In this document: positions 7,694 to 19,812 of the stretch, in pieces | How the letters are laid out: the number at the start of each line of letters is the position of its first letter | How positions within the stretch are numbered: the first letter of the stretch is position 1 | NCBI GenBank assembly: GCA_007693855.1 | Contig: RECU01000061.1 | Coordinates: forward strand, 1-64,000 | Length of the DNA stretch: 64,000 bases | Direction: 5' to 3' | From: Gammaproteobacteria bacterium | GTDB lineage: Bacteria > Pseudomonadota > Gammaproteobacteria > Steroidobacterales > PWYM01 | The notes under the pieces: model-generated | Databases searched by the model: none | What the model was told of the DNA's origin: nothing | Seen by the model: only the letters and a program-made list of their open reading frames with translations | Translations under genes and position numbers: made by a program

Positions 7694-8395
7694 TCATGGG
7701 TTGCTGTTGGGCTGGAGCAGCCCTGGGTCGGGGCCCGTTGTCAGGTCGGTGCTGCCGCCAGCGTGGTCTGGATCGCGCCCGGCGAGCAGCGCCTGCGCCT
7801 CCGCGTCGAAGTATACCAGCGCCCGGTGCAACGCCCCGGTGACCGCGCGGGCCGTCACCGTGGCCCCGGTCACGGCATCAAACTCACCGCCGTCCCGGCG
7901 CACGCGCCAGCGCTCGGCAGGCGGGCGGCCCAGCTGCCGACCCTGAAACTGCATCAGCCAGTCGGAGCGGGCGGTCTCGATGAAGTCGCCCAGCCCCGGG
8001 GTCTCGCGGTGCGCCAGGGTGTCCACGCCGAGCACCTCGCCGCCTGGCGTCAGCCCGACCAGGAGCACGATGCGTCCGCTGTAGCCCTCCGTGGTGGCCA
8101 CCTGCAATACGACGCCGACCGGTTCGCCGCGCCGGCGGGCGAGCCAGGCATGCTCCACGCCGGCGATGCGGGCGGCTGGTGACTGCGGACGGTAGCCGGT
8201 CGCGGCCAGCGCGTTGTCGAAGACGGTATCACCCAGCACGGCGGCCAGCCCGGCCTCGGCGCGGGCCTGAACATTGGCCTCGATGCGCGGTGCGGCCGCC
8301 TGCCAGGTGAGCGCCACCAGGCCGGCGGCGGCGATGGCCACACCGCAGAGCAGGACCAGGCCGCGGCGCAGTTCGCTGGTCGGCGGCGTGGTCAT
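7694..8395 (-). CDS. rnfG: Rnf electron transport complex subunit RnfG
   Basis: 233 aa from ATG 8395, which overlaps the rnfD stop (ATGA). One N-terminal membrane helix (LVLLCGVAIAAAGLVALTW) anchors a periplasmic FMN-binding domain. The FMN attachment motif appears as DAVTGATVTARAV near residue 175, where the second Thr of TGAT would carry the phosphoester-linked FMN. LAHRETPGLGDFIE is the typical conserved block of this domain. RnfG passes electrons between RnfD and the rest of the complex. The C-terminus after LVYFDAEAQALLAG is a low-complexity tail rich in Asp, Thr and Pro, longer than needed for the fold. Confidence 0.96.
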   Translation of the reverse strand: MTTPPTSELRRGLVLLCGVAIAAAGLVALTWQAAAPRIEANVQARAEAGLAAVLGDTVFDNALAATGYRPQSPAARIAGVEHAWLARRRGEPVGVVLQVATTEGYSGRIVLLVGLTPGGEVLGVDTLAHRETPGLGDFIETARSDWLMQFQGRQLGRPPAERWRVRRDGGEFDAVTGATVTARAVTGALHRALVYFDAEAQALLAGRDPDHAGGSTDLTTGPDPGLLQPNSNP

Positions 8396-9423
8396 GTGCC
8401 GAACGGCCTGGAGCGTGTGTGCCGGTCCAGCAACGGGACGACGAGATTCATCAGCAGCACGGCGAAGGCCACGCCGTCCGGGTAGCCGCCCCAGCTGCGG
8501 ATCGCGAAGACCAGTGCGCCGATGCCGCTGCCATAGATCAGCCGGCCCAGGCGCGTGGTGGCGGCCGACACCGGATCGGTGGCGATGAAAAACGCGCCGA
8601 TCAGCGCGGCCCCGCTGAACAGCTGCAGGAACGGCCCCGGGAACCGGTCGCCATCGATGGCCGCGGCCACGGCCGAAAGCAGCGCCAGGGTGGCCAGCAT
8701 GGCCACCGGGATGTGCCAGCGGATGGCCCGGGTCCACAGCAGCCAGAGTCCGCCGAGGGCGATCAGGCCGTTGATCCACAGCCACGCCTGCTCGCCGGGC
8801 CCACCGAACGGCGCGACGGCACGGATCTCGCTCAGGGTCTGCAGCTGGGCCAGGCCGCTGCGCATGGCGTCCAGCGGGGTCGCCTGGGTGATCGCATCCA
8901 GCGTCACTGCGTCGGGCAGGCGTCCGGTCAGGGTGAAGGCCAGCGTCTGGCCCACATCCAGGGCCGGTGGAGCCAGCCCGCCTGGCGCGGCCACGCTCCA
9001 CAAGGCAAGCTGGCCTGGGAAGGACACCAGCACCACCGCGTAACCGGCCATCGCCGGGTTGAACACGTTGTAGCCCAGCCCGCCGTAGAGGTGTTTGGCG
9101 ACGATCATCGCGAAGGCACTGCCGGTGGCGGTGATCCACCAGGGCGTCAGCGGAGGCAGGGCAAAGGCCAGCAGCACCGCGGCGAGTACCGCGCTGCCAT
9201 CGGCGAGTCCCGGGCCGAGCGGCCGCCCGCGCAGGCGCAGCATGAGCGCCTCGGCGGCCAGCGCCGTCACCACGGCCACGGTGAGGTTGAAGGCCAGGCC
9301 CGGACCGAAGAACCACAGGTGCGCGGCGGCAGCCGGCGCCAGTGCCCAGAGCACCCGGCGCATCAGCCGGGGCACACTGGCCTGGACCGGCAGATGCGGT
9401 GCCGCGGCCGTCTCGAATCTCAT
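8392..9423 (-). CDS. rnfD: Rnf electron transport complex subunit RnfD
   Basis: 343 aa from ATG 9423 (MRFETAAAPHLP), overlapping the rnfC stop in ATGA; the open frame upstream is a shadow of rnfC. About nine membrane helices. Family hallmarks are KHLYGGLGYNVFNPAMAGYAVVLVSFP and the FMN attachment block DAITQATPLDAMR, where the Thr of QAT corresponds to the residue esterified to FMN. The C-terminal IRSWGGYPDGVAFAVLLMN is also typical. RnfD forms the membrane core of the ferredoxin:NAD oxidoreductase with RnfA and RnfE. Confidence 0.96.
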   Translation of the reverse strand: MRFETAAAPHLPVQASVPRLMRRVLWALAPAAAAHLWFFGPGLAFNLTVAVVTALAAEALMLRLRGRPLGPGLADGSAVLAAVLLAFALPPLTPWWITATGSAFAMIVAKHLYGGLGYNVFNPAMAGYAVVLVSFPGQLALWSVAAPGGLAPPALDVGQTLAFTLTGRLPDAVTLDAITQATPLDAMRSGLAQLQTLSEIRAVAPFGGPGEQAWLWINGLIALGGLWLLWTRAIRWHIPVAMLATLALLSAVAAAIDGDRFPGPFLQLFSGAALIGAFFIATDPVSAATTRLGRLIYGSGIGALVFAIRSWGGYPDGVAFAVLLMNLVVPLLDRHTRSRPFGT

Positions 9424-10952
9424 GCGTCCCTGCTGCCCGGGTCGTTGTCGCCGCGTGCGCGACGCAGAATGTCGGCGATGGCGGCGGAGGAGGCGGCCGG
9501 GTCGCGCGCCGCACGACGCCGGCGCTCCAGCGCGGCCTCGCGCTCGGCCAGCCGTTGCGCCAGCCGATGCTCGCGGGCCGCGTAGCGGGCCTCGGCCAGC
9601 CGGGCGCGCTCGCGCTCCATCTCGCCCAGCCAGACTCGGCGCTTGGCCACGCGGAACTGTTCGGTCAGCGGGATGTGGCTCGGACAGACCAGGTCGCAGC
9701 AGCCGCACTCGATGCAGGCGAACAGGCCGAGGTCGGCGAGGCCGGTATCGTCCTGACGTCGGGTGGCGCCGTGGAGCAGCTGCGGTGAGAGCCCGGCAGG
9801 ACAGTGCTCGGCGCACTCGCCGCAGCGGATGCAGGCGACGGTCTCACCGCGGTTACCGAGTTCGGCGGCCGTGGCGGCAATCACCCCGTGGGTGCTGCGG
9901 GTCACCGGCACCTCGTCGCAGGCGATCGCCCGGCCGGTCATGGCCCCGCCGACGATCAGCCGCGCGACCTCCGGACGATAGCCCCCACAGACGCGGATCA
10001 GCTCGGCGATGGGGGTGCCCAGTCGGACGTCCAGGTTGCGCGGCTGGGCGACCCCACCGCCGGTCACCGTGACGATGCGGCGGGTGAGCGGACGACCGGT
10101 CTCGAGATAGGTGGCCAGGGCGGCCGCGGTCCCGGCGTTGTGGCAGAGATAGCCGATGTCGGGCGGGTAGCCCTCGGCGGGGACATGCTCGCCGGTGACC
10201 AGTGCGATGAGCTGGCGCTCGCCGCCGGAGGGATAGATCGTCGGCACGGTGACAATGCTCAGCGCCGTCGCGTCGGGGCACTGGCCAATGGCCGCCTCGA
10301 GCGCCGCCAGCGCTTCGGGCTTGTCATCCTCGAGCACGAACACCGCCGCCGGGCAGCCGGTGAGTGTGAGCATGGCACGGGTGCCGGCCACCACTGCCGG
10401 CGCGCGTTCGCGCAGCAGCCGGTCGTCACAGCTGAGATAGGGTTCGCACTCCGCGACGTTGATGAGCAGCGCCCTGAGCCCCTGACGCTGCGCGGCCGCA
10501 AGCTTGGCCCCGGTGGCGAAGCCTGCGCCACCGAGCCCGGCAAGCCCGGCAGCAGCCAGCGTGGCCTCGAGCGTCTCGCTGTCGCGCAGCAGGGCTTCAT
10601 TCGGCGGGGTGCAGGCGAGACGCTCGTCGCGTCCGTCGACCTCGATCACGATGCACAGGGCCTCGCCGCCTGCGACCGGCCGCGGCTCGATCGCCACCAC
10701 GCGGCCCGAACTCGCGGCATGCACCAGCACCGGCTGGCCGTCGCGGGCGCGCACCAGCGGCTGGTCACCCAGCACGTGCTCACCCAGACGCACGGCCGGC
10801 TCGGTGTCGCCGCCCGCGTCGGCCCCCAGCGGATAGATCAGCTCGGCCGGCAATGGCGTCTCGGCAATCGGCAGGCTTGCGCTCTGCGCCTTGCGTGCAG
10901 GCAGCACCAGGCCGCCGGCCAGGCGCCCGTCACCCTCGAGCACCACACTCAT
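9420..10952 (-). CDS. rnfC: Rnf electron transport complex subunit RnfC
   Basis: A 510-aa peripheral subunit that binds NADH and FMN and carries two 4Fe-4S clusters. It has the glycine-rich nucleotide-binding segment AGLAGLGGAGFATGAKL, then LLINVAECEPYLSCDDRLL, GGERQLIALVTG and the ferredoxin-type ligands CIRCGECAEHCP and CIECGCCDLVCP near residues 375-425. The last 70 residues are a highly charged Arg/Ala/Glu helix (AREHRLAQRLAEREAALERR) common as a variable-length tail in RnfC. The start overlaps the rnfB stop (ATGA). Confidence 0.97.
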   Translation of the reverse strand: MSVVLEGDGRLAGGLVLPARKAQSASLPIAETPLPAELIYPLGADAGGDTEPAVRLGEHVLGDQPLVRARDGQPVLVHAASSGRVVAIEPRPVAGGEALCIVIEVDGRDERLACTPPNEALLRDSETLEATLAAAGLAGLGGAGFATGAKLAAAQRQGLRALLINVAECEPYLSCDDRLLRERAPAVVAGTRAMLTLTGCPAAVFVLEDDKPEALAALEAAIGQCPDATALSIVTVPTIYPSGGERQLIALVTGEHVPAEGYPPDIGYLCHNAGTAAALATYLETGRPLTRRIVTVTGGGVAQPRNLDVRLGTPIAELIRVCGGYRPEVARLIVGGAMTGRAIACDEVPVTRSTHGVIAATAAELGNRGETVACIRCGECAEHCPAGLSPQLLHGATRRQDDTGLADLGLFACIECGCCDLVCPSHIPLTEQFRVAKRRVWLGEMERERARLAEARYAAREHRLAQRLAEREAALERRRRAARDPAASSAAIADILRRARGDNDPGSRDA

Positions 10953-11524
10953 GCCGGGTCAGCCGGCCGGAGGGGACTGTCCATCACCGGCGCCTGCAGG
11001 CGCGCACCGGCCGGCAGCCTGTCCGTCCGCGGCACCAGGTCGATGCAGTCGACCGGGCACGGCGCGATGCACAGCTCGCAGCCGGTGCACTCCGCGGTGA
11101 TCACCGTATGCATGTACTGCTGGGCGCCGACGATGGCATCGACCGGGCAGGCCCGCAGACACAGCGTGCAGCCGATGCAGCGGCTCTCGTCGATGACCGC
11201 CACCTGGGGCGGCGGCGCGCGCTCCAGCTCCGGCGCCAGCGGCACCGGTTCGCGACCGAGCAGGCGCGCGAGCGCCGCGATGGTTGCCTCGCCGCCCGGT
11301 GGGCAGCGGTTGATGTCAGCCTCGCCGGCCAGCAGGGCCGCCGCGTACGGCCGGCAGCCGGGATAGCCGCACTGGGCGCACTGAGTCTGTGGCAGGGCGG
11401 CGTTCAGACGTTCCACCGCCGCGCCCTCGCGGTCGGTCAGCCGCCGCGAGATCAGCACGATCAGGCCACCCAGCAGCAGCGCCAGACCGGCCAGCACGCC
11501 GATGGCGGCGAGCACCGTGTTCAT
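10949..11524 (-). CDS. rnfB: Rnf electron transport complex subunit RnfB
   Basis: 191 aa from ATG 11524, overlapping the rnfA stop (ATGA). One N-terminal membrane helix ([20 protein letters not shown]) is followed by the RnfB 4Fe-4S domain ([16 protein letters not shown]) and then two ferredoxin-type clusters ([16 protein letters not shown] and [16 protein letters not shown]). RnfB is the ferredoxin-interacting subunit on the cytoplasmic side. The length matches the short gammaproteobacterial RnfB. Confidence 0.97.
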
Positions 11525-12102
11525 CCGCGGCCCATCCCGGCGAAGCCGAGGAAGGCCAGCGACATCATCCCGGCCGTGATGAGCGCGATTCCCGCGCCGC
11601 GAAAGGCCACCGGGACCGGGGCGGCGTCGATGCGCTCGCGCAGCCCGGCGAACAGTACCATCACCAGGGCGAACCCGGCGGCGGCGCCGAGGCCGTAGAC
11701 CACGGCCTGCACGAAGCCCTCGGCCTCGGTGAGATTGATCAGGGCGACGCCGAGCACCAGGCAGTTGCTGGTGATCAGCGGCAGATAGATGCCGAGCACC
11801 TGGTAGAGCAGCGGACTGGTGGCGCGGACAACCAGCTCGGTGAGCTGGACCAGTCCGGCGATGACCAGGATGAACGCGAGGGTGCGCAGCCAGGTCAGCT
11901 CCAGCGGCACCAGCACCCAGGTGTACACGAGGTGTCCGGCCGCGGCCGCAAGCGTCAGCACGAACGCGGTGGCCAGTGCCATGCCGGCGGTCCCCGTGGT
12001 GCTGGAGGTCACGCCCATAAAGGGACACAGGCCCAGAAAATTGACCAGCACCAGGTTGTTGACCAGCACCGTGGCGATGACGATCAGCGCCAGCTCGGTC
12101 AT
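11521..12102 (-). CDS. rnfA: Rnf electron transport complex subunit RnfA
   Basis: A 193-aa membrane protein with six helices, the family length. Hallmarks are [20 protein letters not shown] and [19 protein letters not shown]; the two Cys residues (GLCPF, SNCLV) correspond to those binding the intramembrane Fe centre with RnfE. It is the first rnf gene and begins 10 bp after the metG stop, so the rnf operon is probably read through from metG. No separate promoter is visible in that gap. Confidence 0.97.
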
Positions 12103-13865: not shown

Positions 13866-14930
13866 TCAGCGGGTCTGTTCGCGGATGTCCTCGAAAGCGG
13901 ACTTGTTACTGGCGGCAAGGTAGGCGTCGCGGCCGGAGATGAACCGCCGGTCGAAGAGTTCGCGCAGGGCCGTGTCCATGGTGCGCATGCCGGCGTTGCC
14001 GCCGGCCTGCATCGTGCTCTCGAGCTGGTCGAGCTTGCCCTGGCGGATCAGGTTGCCCACCGCCGAGTTGTTAATCAGGATTTCCAGTGCCGGAACCCGT
14101 CCCTTGCCGTCCTTGCGGGGGATCAGCTGCTGGGAGACCACGCCACGCAGAGAGGTCGAGAGCATGGTGCGGATATGCGATTGTTTGTCCGAGGGGAAGG
14201 CGTTGACAATACGGTCGACCGTGGCGGCCGCGCCATTGGTGTGCAGGGTACCCATCACCAGAATGCCCATTTCGGCGGCGGTCACCGCGATCCCGATGGT
14301 CTCCAGGTCGCGCATCTCACCGACCAGAATCACGTCGGGATCCTCGCGCAGGGCCGAGTGCAGCGCGGCGGCGAAACTCGGGCTGTGGGTGCCGACTTCG
14401 CGCTGACTGATCAGGCAGTTCTTGCGCTTGTGTACGAACTCGATGGGATCCTCGATGGTCAGGATGTGGCCACGTAGCCGGCTGTTGATGGCGTCGACCA
14501 TCGCCGCCAGTGTTGTCGACTTGCCCGAACCCGTCTTCCCGGTGACCAGGATCAGGCCGTTGGTGCTGCGGGCCAGGTTGTGTACCGCCTGCGGCATGTC
14601 GAGTTCCTCGAGGCTCTTCGCTCGCGCCGGGATGGCTCTGAATATCGCACCCATCCCGTTCAGATGCCGGAAGACATTCACGCGGAAGCGCGCAAGCTCC
14701 GGAACCATGTACGCGAAATCTGCAGAATCGTGGCGCTCGAACATATGCTGCGTCGCCCTTGGCATGATGGCGTAGAGCGCATCGCGCAGCTCGTCGGCGC
14801 GCAGGGCCGCAGGCTCGAGGTGACGCAGATCGCCATAGCGGCGGATTCTCGGCGGGTCGCCAGCCAGCAGATGGAGGTCGGAGCCATCTTCGCTGAGCAC
14901 GCTTTGCAGGTAGCGGTCGACGAGACTCAT
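13866..14930 (-). CDS. PilT/PilU-type pilus retraction ATPase (second copy, PilU-like)
   Basis: 354 aa from ATG 14930. The frame runs on to a TTG at 14981, but MSLVDRYLQSVLSEDGSDLH aligns with the usual PilT/PilU opening. Motifs are Walker A GKTGSGKSTT (131-140), the ALREDPD Asp/Glu motif (193-199), Walker B VILVGEMRD (200-208) and the His box TAAEMGILVMGTLHT (217-231). PilT-type hexamers power retraction of type IV pili; PilU cannot work alone in known systems. It follows a paralog with matching spacing in every motif and a HEAT-kinase gene. Translation may be coupled through a seven-codon mini-ORF (14927-14950). I call it PilU-like from its second position in the operon; sequence alone does not settle which copy is PilT. 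Confidence 0.9.
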   Translation of the reverse strand: MSLVDRYLQSVLSEDGSDLHLLAGDPPRIRRYGDLRHLEPAALRADELRDALYAIMPRATQHMFERHDSADFAYMVPELARFRVNVFRHLNGMGAIFRAIPARAKSLEELDMPQAVHNLARSTNGLILVTGKTGSGKSTTLAAMVDAINSRLRGHILTIEDPIEFVHKRKNCLISQREVGTHSPSFAAALHSALREDPDVILVGEMRDLETIGIAVTAAEMGILVMGTLHTNGAAATVDRIVNAFPSDKQSHIRTMLSTSLRGVVSQQLIPRKDGKGRVPALEILINNSAVGNLIRQGKLDQLESTMQAGGNAGMRTMDTALRELFDRRFISGRDAYLAASNKSAFEDIREQTR

Positions 14931-14950
14931 GGCGTGAGGGCCGAAGTCAT
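14927..14950 (-). other. Seven-codon mini-ORF linking the two pilus ATPase genes
   Basis: The stop of the upstream ATPase gene (TGA, 14952-14950) overlaps an ATG (14950). That ATG opens a seven-codon frame (MTSALTP) whose TGA overlaps the ATG of the downstream ATPase (14930). GGAGG stands 6 bases before the mini-ORF start, while the downstream gene has no good ribosome site of its own. This layout would let ribosomes pass from one gene to the next by two termination-reinitiation steps. The overlaps are seen directly; translation of the mini-ORF is inference. Confidence 0.35.
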
Positions 14951-16056
14951 CAGGAGCCTCCGCGCATGGCTGGCATGTCAACCTTGGTCAGGATCGTCGT
15001 GTCGGTGACGAAGCGCTCGAAAGCTTTCTTGTCGTTGCCGTAGCGATAGGCATCGTCCGGGTCGAGTGTCTTGTTGCGCACACCTTCCAGAAGGGCCTGA
15101 TCCATGGTCTGCATGCCAAGGTCACGTCCCGTCTGGAGTTGCGCGGGAATCTGGTGGGTCTGCTCGGTCATGATCAGTTTGCCGATGGCCCGAGTCATGA
15201 GCATGATCTCCAGGACGGCACGGCGGCCGCGCCCATCGGCGGTCTTCACCAGGTTCTGGGTGATCACCGCGTTCAGGCTCTGGGACAGGAAACTCTTGGT
15301 CTGCTCGCGTTCCTCGGCGGGCAGTGCGTCGATCACGCGGTCGATGGTCTTGACCGCGCCGGTGGTGTGCAGCGTGCCGAGCACGAGATGGCCGGTCTCG
15401 GCGGCCGTCATGGCCCAGCGGATGGTTTCCGCATCACGCAGTTCGCCGACCAGGATGACGTCCGGGTCCTGACGCATGGCAGCCCGGACGCCTTCCGCGA
15501 AGCTGCGGATATGCGTGCCGAGTTCGCGCTGGATGACCTGAGAGTTCTTGCTCGGGTGGACGAACTCGATCGGGTCTTCGAGGCTGATGATGTTGAGGGC
15601 CCGATCACTGTTCAGGTGATCGATCATCGACGCGAGCGTGGTCGACTTCCCGGTGCCGGTGGAGCCGGTGACCAGCACCATGCCCTGGTGGTGATCGCAG
15701 AGCTTTTGGATCACGGGGGGCATACCGAGGCTGTCCATCGTCGGAATGCTGGCGGGGATGTGGCGGAACGTGGCGCCGAGTCCGGTGTCTTTGCGGTAGA
15801 GATTGACCCGGAACCGTCCGCCTTCTTCGCTGACGTAAGAGAAGTCGAGATCGTTGCCGCTTTCGAAGTACTCGCGTTGGTGTTCGGTGAGCACCTCGTA
15901 GAGGTAGCCTTCGAGTTCCACGTCGCCCAGATCCCGGAACTTGATGGGCATCAGGTCGCCGTGCATCCGCAGCATCGGCGGCACCCCCACTGCGAGATGG
16001 ACGTCGGAACAGCCCTGGGCCAGTCCCAGCTTCAGAAAGGCGTCTAGGCGCGGCAT
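14950..16056 (-). CDS. PilT/PilU-type pilus retraction ATPase (first copy)
   Basis: 368 aa. Opens MPRLDAFLKLGLAQGCSDVH, the PilT/PilU N-terminal domain. Walker A is GSTGTGKSTT (131-140), the MRQDPD motif is at 194-199, Walker B VILVGELRD (200-208), and the His box TAAETGHLVLGTLHT (217-231). Compared with canonical PilT (GPTGSGKSTT, EDLRDxET) the core is intact, so activity is expected. The C-terminal 35 residues (DKKAFERFVTDTTILTKVDMPAMRGGS) extend past the usual PilT end, as in PilU proteins. Its start lies inside the last codons of the kinase gene (13-bp overlap), so the three genes are one translation-coupled operon. No pilB, pilC or pilin gene is in the window. Confidence 0.92.
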   Translation of the reverse strand: MPRLDAFLKLGLAQGCSDVHLAVGVPPMLRMHGDLMPIKFRDLGDVELEGYLYEVLTEHQREYFESGNDLDFSYVSEEGGRFRVNLYRKDTGLGATFRHIPASIPTMDSLGMPPVIQKLCDHHQGMVLVTGSTGTGKSTTLASMIDHLNSDRALNIISLEDPIEFVHPSKNSQVIQRELGTHIRSFAEGVRAAMRQDPDVILVGELRDAETIRWAMTAAETGHLVLGTLHTTGAVKTIDRVIDALPAEEREQTKSFLSQSLNAVITQNLVKTADGRGRRAVLEIMLMTRAIGKLIMTEQTHQIPAQLQTGRDLGMQTMDQALLEGVRNKTLDPDDAYRYGNDKKAFERFVTDTTILTKVDMPAMRGGS

Positions 16057-18509
16057 GCCTGGCGGTGCTCCTGAAGATATCCGGCGAGCGCTTCATGCAA
16101 CTCGTCCATGGTCTGATGACGGGCGTTCTTGTCCAGGGCCATGGCCTTTTGCACAATGGCGGAGAGCGGTTCCGGCAGCGCGGGGTTGCGTTCATGCGGG
16201 GCCTCGGCCTTGCCCTGCACGTGCTGGTACATCACCGACATGTGATCGCCCTTGGTGTACGGTGGCGAGCCGGTGAGCATCTCGTACAGGATCACCCCGA
16301 GGCTGTAGATGTCCGCGCGTTCATCGACTTTCTTGCCCAGGATCTGCTCGGGCGCCATGTACTTCGGCGAGCCGATGACATACCCCGTCTTGGTGAGTTC
16401 CGTACCGCCGCTGGCCGCTGCCGCCGCCACTCCGAAATCGACGATTTTCAGCAGGCCCGCGTCGTTGATCAGGATGTTCGCCGGCTTGAGGTCGCGGTGG
16501 ATGATGCCCTGCTGATGGGCCACGGCCATGCCGGTGGCGATATCGCAGCCGTATCGAAGGGCCCGCTCGATCTCCAGCGGGCGTTGATCCACCACCTCCG
16601 TGCCGAGGGTGTGCGAGGGAAAGAACTCCATTGAGATGGCGTAGTTCCCGGAGATGAAGACGAAGTCATAGATGCGAATGACGTTCTTGTGCGTGATCTT
16701 GCGCGAGTAGCGCAGCTCGTGCACGAAGCGTTTCATCATTTCCTCGTCCGAGGCGAAATTCGGATTCAGGAACTTGAGGATCAGGCGCTCCTCGACCACG
16801 GTGTCCTCGACGAGCACGACGGTGCCGAAGGCGCCTTTGCCGATCTTCTCGATGAAGCGGTATCGACCCTCGATGATGTCGCCCGGCGAGAGCGCGGCGA
16901 TGTCCAGTGAACCACCGTCTGTCCCCTTGGGCAGCGGAGGCAACGCGCTTGCGACGCTGTCGAGACTGCCAGGCGCCTCCAGCAGAGTATGGCTGCCGCT
17001 GGCCGCGAGCGCCGGGTGACTGCCGCTTAGCGAATCGGCGGCGCGGGCCACGCTGCCGCTGGCGGTCGTCGTCGCGCCGAGCAGGCGATTCTCCATGTCC
17101 TGGACCAGCTTGCCAGCAAGCCGGTTGACCGTCATGTCCGCAGTGGCCTGGCCGGCATGCAGCAGCAGGGTGCGCACTGACTCGGCCTCGCGTTCCCCGG
17201 CAAGCCGCGAGAGCGCTGTCATGGTCTCGACCTTGATGGCCTTGTCGCCACGCCGGAGCAGCGGGGTCAGCCGCTGGACCACGGAGGCATCGCCGAGCTT
17301 GCCCAGGGCGCGGATGGCGGCCGGCACGCTTTTCGGCTCGCCCTCGAGCATGGCCACCAACGCTGGCACCGCTTGACTGCTACCGATCGCCCCGAGCGCG
17401 TCTGCCGCCCGTTCCCGCACCCACCAGTCTTGGTCGCGGGTCGCCTCCATCAGCGCCTTCACCGCACGCTCGTCGCGGGTGGAGTTGAGAATCTCGATGG
17501 CCGCGCGGCGGATGGCCTCGTCCTCATCGTTGACGAGTTTCAGGACCGCGTCGATGACCCGTGGCCCGCCGATCTTGGCCAGCGCGTCAGAGGCCCGGGA
17601 GCGAACCCACCAGTCCTCGTCCTTGACCGCTTCGAAGAGCACCTTGACGCTGCTGACATCGCACAGTTCGTTCAGCACCTCGACCGCCGCCCGCCGGGCG
17701 TACTCGGATTCGTCCTTGAGCGGCTCGATCAGGTGGCGGACCGTATCCGGATCGGCGAGGCGGACGACCAGGTCAACCGCTCGGTTGACGACGTCGATGT
17801 CGGGATCCCGCAGCAGCCCGCACAGGCGCACCACGTCCAGGCCATTGTCCTGCTCGCCCAGGGCCTCGAGCGCTGCCCGGCGCACCTGCTTGTTGCCGTC
17901 GCCGAGCTGGCGCTGCAGTGCGATGGCCACCTCCGGCGCCTTGAACTGACCGAGAATACGCATCAGGTGCACCCGGACCCCAGGATCCTTGCCGTCCAGG
18001 CGGGCGATCAGTTCGGGCACGGTTTCGGCAGTGGCGGCCCGGCCAATCAGTTTGAACAATCCTGTGCGTTCCGCGCCCTCGAGATCGTACGCCACCTGCA
18101 GGAGTTCACGTAGATTCAGGCGCTGGCGATGCACGGCCATGATCTCGAGGACAGCTGGCCGCGAGATGTCTTCCTCGTTCAGCAGTTCGAGCAGACGGTT
18201 GGGGTTGAACTCCTGGCTGGAGGACAGTGCCCATGCGGTGCCGGACACTGCCCGCGGGCTGGGATCGGCCAGGCCGCGGGCGACTTGCGGAAACGTTCGC
18301 TCGGAGATCAGCCCGGTGAGCACCTCGACGAACTCCACGGTCTGCCGCCGATCGGCGTGGCCCAGGGCCTCGATGATGCGCGGAATGGCGCTCGGGCCGA
18401 CCCGGCGCAGCTTGTCGAGCGCCTTGCGCGCCTCCGGGGAGGCAGGATCGCCCGCGCCCTGGATCTGGGCGATGAGCCGGTCGGCCTTGAGCACGCTGAG
18501 GAAGTTCAT
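16044..18509 (-). CDS. HEAT-repeat protein with C-terminal Ser/Thr kinase domain
   Basis: 821 aa from ATG 18509; the frame extends upstream but without coding character. Residues about 20-450 are HEAT/PBS-lyase-type repeats, including two near-identical units (EDWWVRSRASDALAKIG at 298-314 and QDWWVRERAADALGAIG at 360-376). A Ser/Ala/Gly-rich linker (480-545) leads to a complete Hanks-type kinase: glycine loop GKGAFG (557-562), Lys579, HRDLKPAN (671-678), DFG (691-693), APE (719-721) and DIYSLGVILYE. No signal peptide or membrane helix is seen, so the protein is cytosolic. All catalytic residues are present. The overlapping downstream genes are two pilus retraction ATPases, so phosphorylation control of pilus retraction or twitching is the natural hypothesis. 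The HEAT array probably binds the partner protein. Confidence 0.92.
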   Translation of the reverse strand: MNFLSVLKADRLIAQIQGAGDPASPEARKALDKLRRVGPSAIPRIIEALGHADRRQTVEFVEVLTGLISERTFPQVARGLADPSPRAVSGTAWALSSSQEFNPNRLLELLNEEDISRPAVLEIMAVHRQRLNLRELLQVAYDLEGAERTGLFKLIGRAATAETVPELIARLDGKDPGVRVHLMRILGQFKAPEVAIALQRQLGDGNKQVRRAALEALGEQDNGLDVVRLCGLLRDPDIDVVNRAVDLVVRLADPDTVRHLIEPLKDESEYARRAAVEVLNELCDVSSVKVLFEAVKDEDWWVRSRASDALAKIGGPRVIDAVLKLVNDEDEAIRRAAIEILNSTRDERAVKALMEATRDQDWWVRERAADALGAIGSSQAVPALVAMLEGEPKSVPAAIRALGKLGDASVVQRLTPLLRRGDKAIKVETMTALSRLAGEREAESVRTLLLHAGQATADMTVNRLAGKLVQDMENRLLGATTTASGSVARAADSLSGSHPALAASGSHTLLEAPGSLDSVASALPPLPKGTDGGSLDIAALSPGDIIEGRYRFIEKIGKGAFGTVVLVEDTVVEERLILKFLNPNFASDEEMMKRFVHELRYSRKITHKNVIRIYDFVFISGNYAISMEFFPSHTLGTEVVDQRPLEIERALRYGCDIATGMAVAHQQGIIHRDLKPANILINDAGLLKIVDFGVAAAAASGGTELTKTGYVIGSPKYMAPEQILGKKVDERADIYSLGVILYEMLTGSPPYTKGDHMSVMYQHVQGKAEAPHERNPALPEPLSAIVQKAMALDKNARHQTMDELHEALAGYLQEHRQACRA

Positions 18510-18714: not shown

Positions 18715-19812
18715 ATGTCGACACAGGATGAGGCGACGCTGCGGACACGCATTGGCACGCTCGAGCTGCCATGGTTTGGGCGGCCGCTGTCCGAGGTCGC
18801 CGGGCGGCTGGAGGTCAGTGGCCAGGCGCCGGGCCGGATCCGGGTGTCGCTGTCGCTCGGTGTCCCCCTGACCCATCGCCAGGAGGCCCTGCGGGCTGCC
18901 ATCGCCGAGCACCTCGCCGGCGCCGGCATCCAGGCCGAGGTGGAGCTCGAGCTGGCCTGCGAGGTGGCCCGTCATGCGGTGCAGGGCAACCTCAAGCCGC
19001 TTGAGGGCGTCCGCAACATCATCGCGGTGGCCTCGGGCAAGGGGGGCGTGGGCAAGTCCACCACGGCGGTGAACCTCGCGCTGGCCTTGGCGGTCGAGGG
19101 CGCCCGGGTGGGCCTGCTCGATGCTGATATCTACGGGCCGAGCATGCCGCGGATGCTCGGACTGATCGGCGAGCGTCCGGTCACGCCGGATGGCAAGCAT
19201 TTCGAGCCCCTGGCGGCCCACGGACTGGCGGCCATGTCCATCGGGTTTCTCATCGACGACGCCCAGCCGATGGTCTGGCGCGGCCCGATGGTGACCTCCG
19301 CACTCAACCAGATGCTCGGCCAGACCTTTTGGGGTGAGCTTGACTACCTGATCGTCGACATGCCGCCGGGCACGGGTGACATCCAGCTCACGCTGGCGCA
19401 GCGGGTACCGGTCAGCGGTGCGGTAATCGTCACCACCCCGCAGGACATCGCGCTGTCGGATGCGCGCAAGGGGCTGGAGATGTTCCGGAAGGTTAATGTG
19501 AACGTACTGGGGATTGTCGAGAACATGAGCCTGCACATCTGCTCCAACTGCGGCCACCAGGAGCCGATCTTCGGTCACGGCGGCGGCGAGCGCATGGCCA
19601 CCGAGTATGGGGTCCCGCTGCTCGGCAGCCTGCCGCTGGATATCCGCATCCGCGAGGAGACCGACAGCGGTCGCCCAAGCGTGGTGGCCGACCCCGAGAG
19701 CGCCGTGGCCCGGGCGTATCGCGAGGCCGCACTGAACATGGCCGGCCGGCTGGCCTTGTCCGGGCGCGACTACGGCCACCGCTTCCCCAATATCGTCGTC
19801 GAGGATTCCTGA
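18715..19812 (+). CDS. apbC: Iron-sulfur cluster carrier protein ApbC/Mrp (P-loop NTPase)
   Basis: 365 aa from ATG 18715, chosen over the longer frame because CAGGGAG precedes it at good distance. An N-terminal MIP18/DUF59-like domain (about 1-90) is followed by the ParA/MinD-type NTPase: deviant Walker [33 protein letters not shown], and [13 protein letters not shown]. The bridging CxxC (CSNCGHQ, near 285) binds the transferable 4Fe-4S cluster between two subunits. It delivers Fe-S clusters to target enzymes. The stop overlaps the dcd start (TGATG). In many relatives apbC is divergent from metG; here the kinase/pilus operon is inserted between them. Confidence 0.96.

Follow-up and report, generated by a model that had tools for sequence, protein, structure and literature searches.

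The window, a 64,000-nucleotide stretch comprising positions 1 to 64,000 of contig RECU01000061.1, contains a compact minus-strand operon of three genes located between apbC and metG. The first gene (18509-16044) encodes a HEAT-repeat Ser/Thr kinase of 821 amino acids, hereafter HK, as delineated by its open reading frame, Pfam matches and an AlphaFold model. Two PilT-family ATPase genes follow, T2 (16056-14950, 368 amino acids) and T3 (14930-13866, 354 amino acids). The apbC gene starts at 18715 on the plus strand and is divergent to HK, and metG (13792-12113, minus strand) lies beyond T3 and is adjoined by Rnf/Rsx electron-transport genes (7694-12102, minus strand). HK and T2 overlap by 13 nt (16044..16056), with the HK stop codon (16046-16044) inside T2, and an AGGAG sequence at 16072-16068 is placed 11 nt before the T2 ATG. 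An earlier sequence-only reading had described a kinase gene overlapping that of a PilT-type ATPase and followed by a second PilT-family ATPase gene, and the open reading frames, Pfam and TIGR01420 matches bear this out. Translational coupling, also proposed there, is not general: the 13-nt overlap is confined to the window's genus, elsewhere the median gap between HK and T2 is 57 nt, and short overlaps occur in about a dozen distant loci.

This layout is the standard one of the window's order. HK is present in 45 of 59 relatives from the order and in 302 GTDB stretches, the best 80 of which were kept for locus comparison. Among these best 80 of 302 loci, the arrangement of apbC divergent from HK-T2-T3 and followed by metG is nearly invariant. 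Where the contig is long enough, HK is always succeeded by T2 (74/74 loci), and T3 is next in 71 of 72, the exception being a Nevskiaceae MAG without T3 (L115). Because the apbC/metG layout is nearly invariant, the module is old in the order, and the suggested insertion between metG and apbC is rejected as a recent, mobile event. Across the order, the distances among HK proteins track those of T2 (partial r 0.63) and T3 (0.69) beyond the shared ApbC background, a correlation that linkage alone could cause. The lineages with the module include cultured strains (Povalibacter, Steroidobacter and Peristeroidobacter).

HK matches HEAT_2 (E=9.4e-51) and Pkinase (E=1.5e-50) in Pfam. It contains no transmembrane-like segment, with a top 19-residue hydropathy mean of 1.48, and is predicted to be cytoplasmic. 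A longer reading of 850 amino acids is unlikely because the homologues begin at the same MNF/MSF methionine. The AlphaFold model (mean pLDDT 78, pTM 0.51, with the kinase modelled poorly in parts) consists of continuous HEAT helices from residue 2 to 483, a disordered linker at about 484-535 and the kinase at 540-820. The Hanks kinase domain (residues 548-808; 16086..16868) has the catalytic Lys, Glu, HRD and DFG that characterize Hanks-type Ser/Thr kinases, and these residues (K579, E598, HRD 671-673 and DFG 691-693) are invariant in 44 homologues. The kinase is intact, and Ser/Thr phosphorylation is its predicted activity. Two threonines of its activation loop, Thr706 and Thr708 in LTKTG (16386..16394), are strongly conserved among 107 sequences: T706 is found in all 107, and T708 is Thr in 99 and Ser in 6. 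Their place in the loop matches that of the activation-loop threonines in PknB. Among solved structures, PknB-type kinases match the kinase part best, the top hit being PknB complexed with GarA. HK scores 280 bits against the PASTA kinase model (PknB/Stk1, NF033483), below its 450-bit cut-off, and the match covers the kinase domain only. Identity as an anti-phage defence kinase was considered and rejected, since the PADLOC matches span the generic kinase domain only and T2 and T3 score weakly.

The most conserved part of the HEAT array is residues 251-410 (17280..17759), which carry two DxDWWV motifs. With a mean entropy of 1.26 they are as conserved as the kinase (1.19), the remaining array lying at 1.87-2.32, and D299, W300 and W301 as well as D361, W362 and W363 are invariant in 44 homologues. 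Such conservation is as expected of a binding surface, so that this segment is a candidate docking surface, consistent with the earlier proposal that the HEAT array serves as a docking scaffold. In a PDB fold search, kinases and synthetic alphaReps made up most of the matches, and no partner for the array emerged. The HEAT-plus-kinase architecture by itself is not diagnostic of the module: kinases of family f169 match HK weakly and occur without T2.

T2 and T3 both pass the 319-bit cut-off of the pilT_fam model TIGR01420, with 420 and 432 bits, respectively. In a maximum-likelihood tree of 75 rows, each forms its own clade with a support of 100, and the two clades are mutual sisters (98/87). 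They adjoin canonical PilT, apart from the PilU clade, and neither protein falls within the canonical PilT clade or the PilU clade. The tree therefore makes T3 PilT-type, and the PilU identity previously given to the second ATPase is not supported. Walker A, the Asp box and Walker B are intact in their key residues in 33/33 T2 and 33/33 T3 proteins, as is the catalytic Glu in both. PilT has a His box and AIRNLIRE as motifs, the latter missing from PilU, and the two ATPases function as a pair (PMC6762196). Neither T2 nor T3 combines a two-His His box with AIRNLIRE: T2 keeps the His box and has lost AIRNLIRE, whereas in T3 the first His of the His box is replaced by Ile in 32/33 proteins and the N-L-I-R of AIRNLIRE is kept. 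They share a change from Asp to His after the Asp box. These complementary lesions, by which each protein is deprived of another element of canonical PilT, suggest a partnership in which each may need the other. Their predicted function is that of retraction-type motors. Thr259 of T3 (14154..14156), invariant in T3 and replaced by Glu in canonical PilT, is by position a candidate phosphosite, and T3 Ser175 is another candidate. Comparison of T2 homologues gave no clear conserved T2-specific phosphosite.

On its contig 47 the window's genome also possesses a pilT-pilU-pilU2 locus of the canonical, yggS-linked kind (L009:5843-9167), and hence T2 and T3 are extra there. PilB, PilM and GspE are encoded as well. 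The pilU2 gene is a third, PilU-like gene of the canonical locus, and the same three-gene arrangement is found in another carrier, G101 (L195). Both genomes encode five PilT-family ATPases.

The distribution of the module across Gammaproteobacteria was examined in an even sample of 369 genomes of the class. The T2 threshold of E<=1e-118 is far beyond the scores of canonical PilT. There are 51 genomes with an HK match and 45 with T2, and every T2 genome also has HK (45/45). The Fisher probability for this co-occurrence is about 1e-54 when relatedness is ignored, and the 45 carriers span about 25 families. Six genomes have HK only. Three of them, from family f169, encode distant kinases, in two others (G355 and G367) HK lies where the contig ends, and the sixth, G340, keeps the HEAT part of HK together with an upstream gene described below, the kinase domain, T2 and T3 being missing together (L185, L196; this genome is 72% complete and calls for caution). 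Two genera each include a sampled genome with HK and T2 and a sampled genome without either (G101 versus G241; G377 versus G163). Outside the window's order, HK, T2 and T3 are adjacent in 33 of 35 loci, with different flanks and no apbC/metG. In G220 and G421, HK and T2-T3 are on separate contigs with other neighbours, and both are retained. HK-T2-T3 is no chance cluster, and the three genes almost certainly form one evolutionary unit. The view of kinase and ATPases as a dedicated unit is upheld by these counts. The idea of a self-contained three-gene cassette is not, because in other orders four genes are the minimum and the unit is usually larger.

The additional genes point to phosphothreonine signalling. 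An FHA or PP2C gene is present within about five genes of the module in 21 of 33 loci outside the order, in keeping with the phospho-signalling setting envisaged earlier. Directly upstream of HK in these lineages lies a gene, c2, for a protein of about 155 amino acids, which is DUF6812-like in 16 of 17 members. A c2 profile matched 27 of 266 genomes, all carrying both HK and T2, and a search for solved structures gave no convincing relative of c2. Directly downstream of T3 in 14 loci is c3, an FHA protein in which an invariant Thr (EPTM/ERTM) follows the FHA domain (for example, L153:12767-13435 and L157:12679-13347); this Thr is possibly a phosphorylation site read by an FHA domain. Other neighbours are a PP2C phosphatase (c5), a protein with FHA, GAF and HD domains whose HHExxDGxGYP sequence is typical of HD-GYP enzymes (c6) and an adenylate/guanylate-cyclase fused to FHA (c7), c6 or c7 being present in 11 of 33 loci. 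Judged by their domains, the DUF6812, FHA and PP2C proteins beside HK-T2-T3 are predicted parts of a phosphothreonine circuit. Next to the modules of the window's order, neither an FHA nor a PP2C gene was observed, and the c2 profile found no member in 59 genomes; the circuit there is therefore unlinked or different. The window's genome has a separate kinase-PP2C-FHA locus on contig 100 (L188:1051-3173), whose FHA protein resembles c3. This protein is not claimed for the module because its scores are similar to those of relatives, which occur in many HK-negative genomes.

Because HK recurs with a PilT-like pair in many gammaproteobacterial families, and outside the window's order often beside phosphothreonine readers, the module is probably an undescribed phosphorylation-controlled type IV pilus switch. 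We lean slightly towards HK-T2-T3 being a second, kinase-controlled retraction-type motor for type IVa pili that works alongside PilT/PilU, and we lean to the same slight degree towards phospho-control by HK. Like PilT and PilU, T2 and T3 would most likely cooperate at the pilus base on its cytoplasmic side. HK would dock through the middle of its HEAT array (residues 251-410), autophosphorylate its PknB-like activation loop and phosphorylate T2/T3 or a small FHA adaptor. Phosphorylation would turn the second motor on or off upon some signal, and the PP2C phosphatase would reset the switch. For the wider proposition, that the HEAT kinase and two PilT-like ATPases, joined by DUF6812, FHA and PP2C proteins in most lineages outside the order, constitute a widespread and undescribed phosphothreonine circuit, either controlling a second type IVa retraction motor or driven by it, the chances are about even.

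The direction from kinase to motor is assumed in this scheme, and signalling from motor to kinase may also occur. T2 and T3 would then be sensors, the ATPase state or pilus engagement would activate HK, and surface contact would be signalled through the FHA-second-messenger-enzyme fusions. The presence of c6 and c7 beside the module outside the order fits this reversal, and T2 without AIRNLIRE and T3 without one His of the His box may be poor motors in a cell that already has PilT/PilU. However, both proteins retain an intact Asp box, catalytic Glu and Walker A and B motifs, and c6/c7 accompany just one third of the loci (11/33), which leaves the reversal unlikely.

Type IVa pili are the best-supported target of the second motor and a likely one, mainly on grounds of homology and of the near-universal presence of pilus genes in carriers. 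The contrary outcome named by the sequence-only reading, that homologues would mostly lack pilus genes, is absent: a pilus core (PilB or PilM) is present in 43 of 45 T2-positive genomes. PilB, called at E<=1e-180, is found in 37/45 carriers versus 231/324 other genomes, a difference that is not significant (p=0.15), and six of the eight carriers below the cut-off have PilM. In G092, a 98% complete MAG with the module, neither PilB nor PilM was found. A role of the module in powering or regulating a different filament of this family, such as the type II secretion pseudopilus or an MSHA-like pilus, is quite unlikely. Such a target would fit the presence of GspE in 38/45 carriers. The T2-negative set of the GspE test was chosen from PilB-positive genomes, which biases its baseline. 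It would also fit G101, a single-contig genome in which the module lies about 8 kb from a full gsp cluster and no PilB match exceeded the cut-off (L154, L194, L195). However, G101 has PilM and canonical pilT-pilU, and three carriers of family f166 (G208, G319 and G413) lack GspE while having the module and PilB, which rules out type II secretion as an obligatory partner. That the kinase and ATPases are merely co-expressed for shared regulation, HK having unrelated substrates, is improbable: operons can be conserved without physical interaction, but HK and T2-T3 are both retained when unlinked (G220 and G421) and are jointly present or absent across many families.

A second, kinase-controlled motor would matter because the control of retraction on and off is little understood and because many genomes contain extra PilT genes without a known role. 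The one-to-one inheritance of a kinase and a PilT pair, with phosphothreonine readers nearby, provides a testable link between phosphorylation and pilus mechanics, and DUF6812 gains its first functional context from the module. The open-access literature yielded no relevant paper joining a HEAT kinase, or FHA plus kinase, to PilT.

Several known systems share parts of the module. PilT and PilU of type IVa pili resemble T2 and T3 in belonging to the TIGR01420 family, in forming a tandem pair and in having the same ATPase motifs, and PilU, like T2, lacks AIRNLIRE (PMC6762196). In contrast to PilT/PilU, T2 and T3 are sister clades of their own beside PilT, coexist with canonical pilT-pilU, are linked to a kinase and have unusual changes, namely His to Ile in the T3 His box and the shared Asp to His following the Asp box. 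SpkA and SpkB of Synechocystis are Ser/Thr kinases needed for pilus-based motility (PMC7076178). Like HK they are Ser/Thr kinases, and they affect type IV pilus motility, but that source describes neither their co-encoding with retraction ATPases nor a role dedicated to these. The archaellum network of ArnA (FHA), the kinases ArnC and ArnD, and PP2A (PMC4307647) likewise combines a kinase, an FHA protein and a phosphatase in the control of a filament from the type IV pilus superfamily. It differs in being archaeal, in targeting the expression of the archaellum operon and in having no PilT-like pair. PknB/Stk1 kinases with FHA substrates, of the PknB-GarA type, share with HK the PknB-like domain and the activation-loop Thr pair, and with the module the nearby FHA and PP2C genes, which the module has in other orders only. 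HK differs from them in carrying a cytoplasmic HEAT array in place of the transmembrane/PASTA part and in having pilus ATPases as its operon partners.
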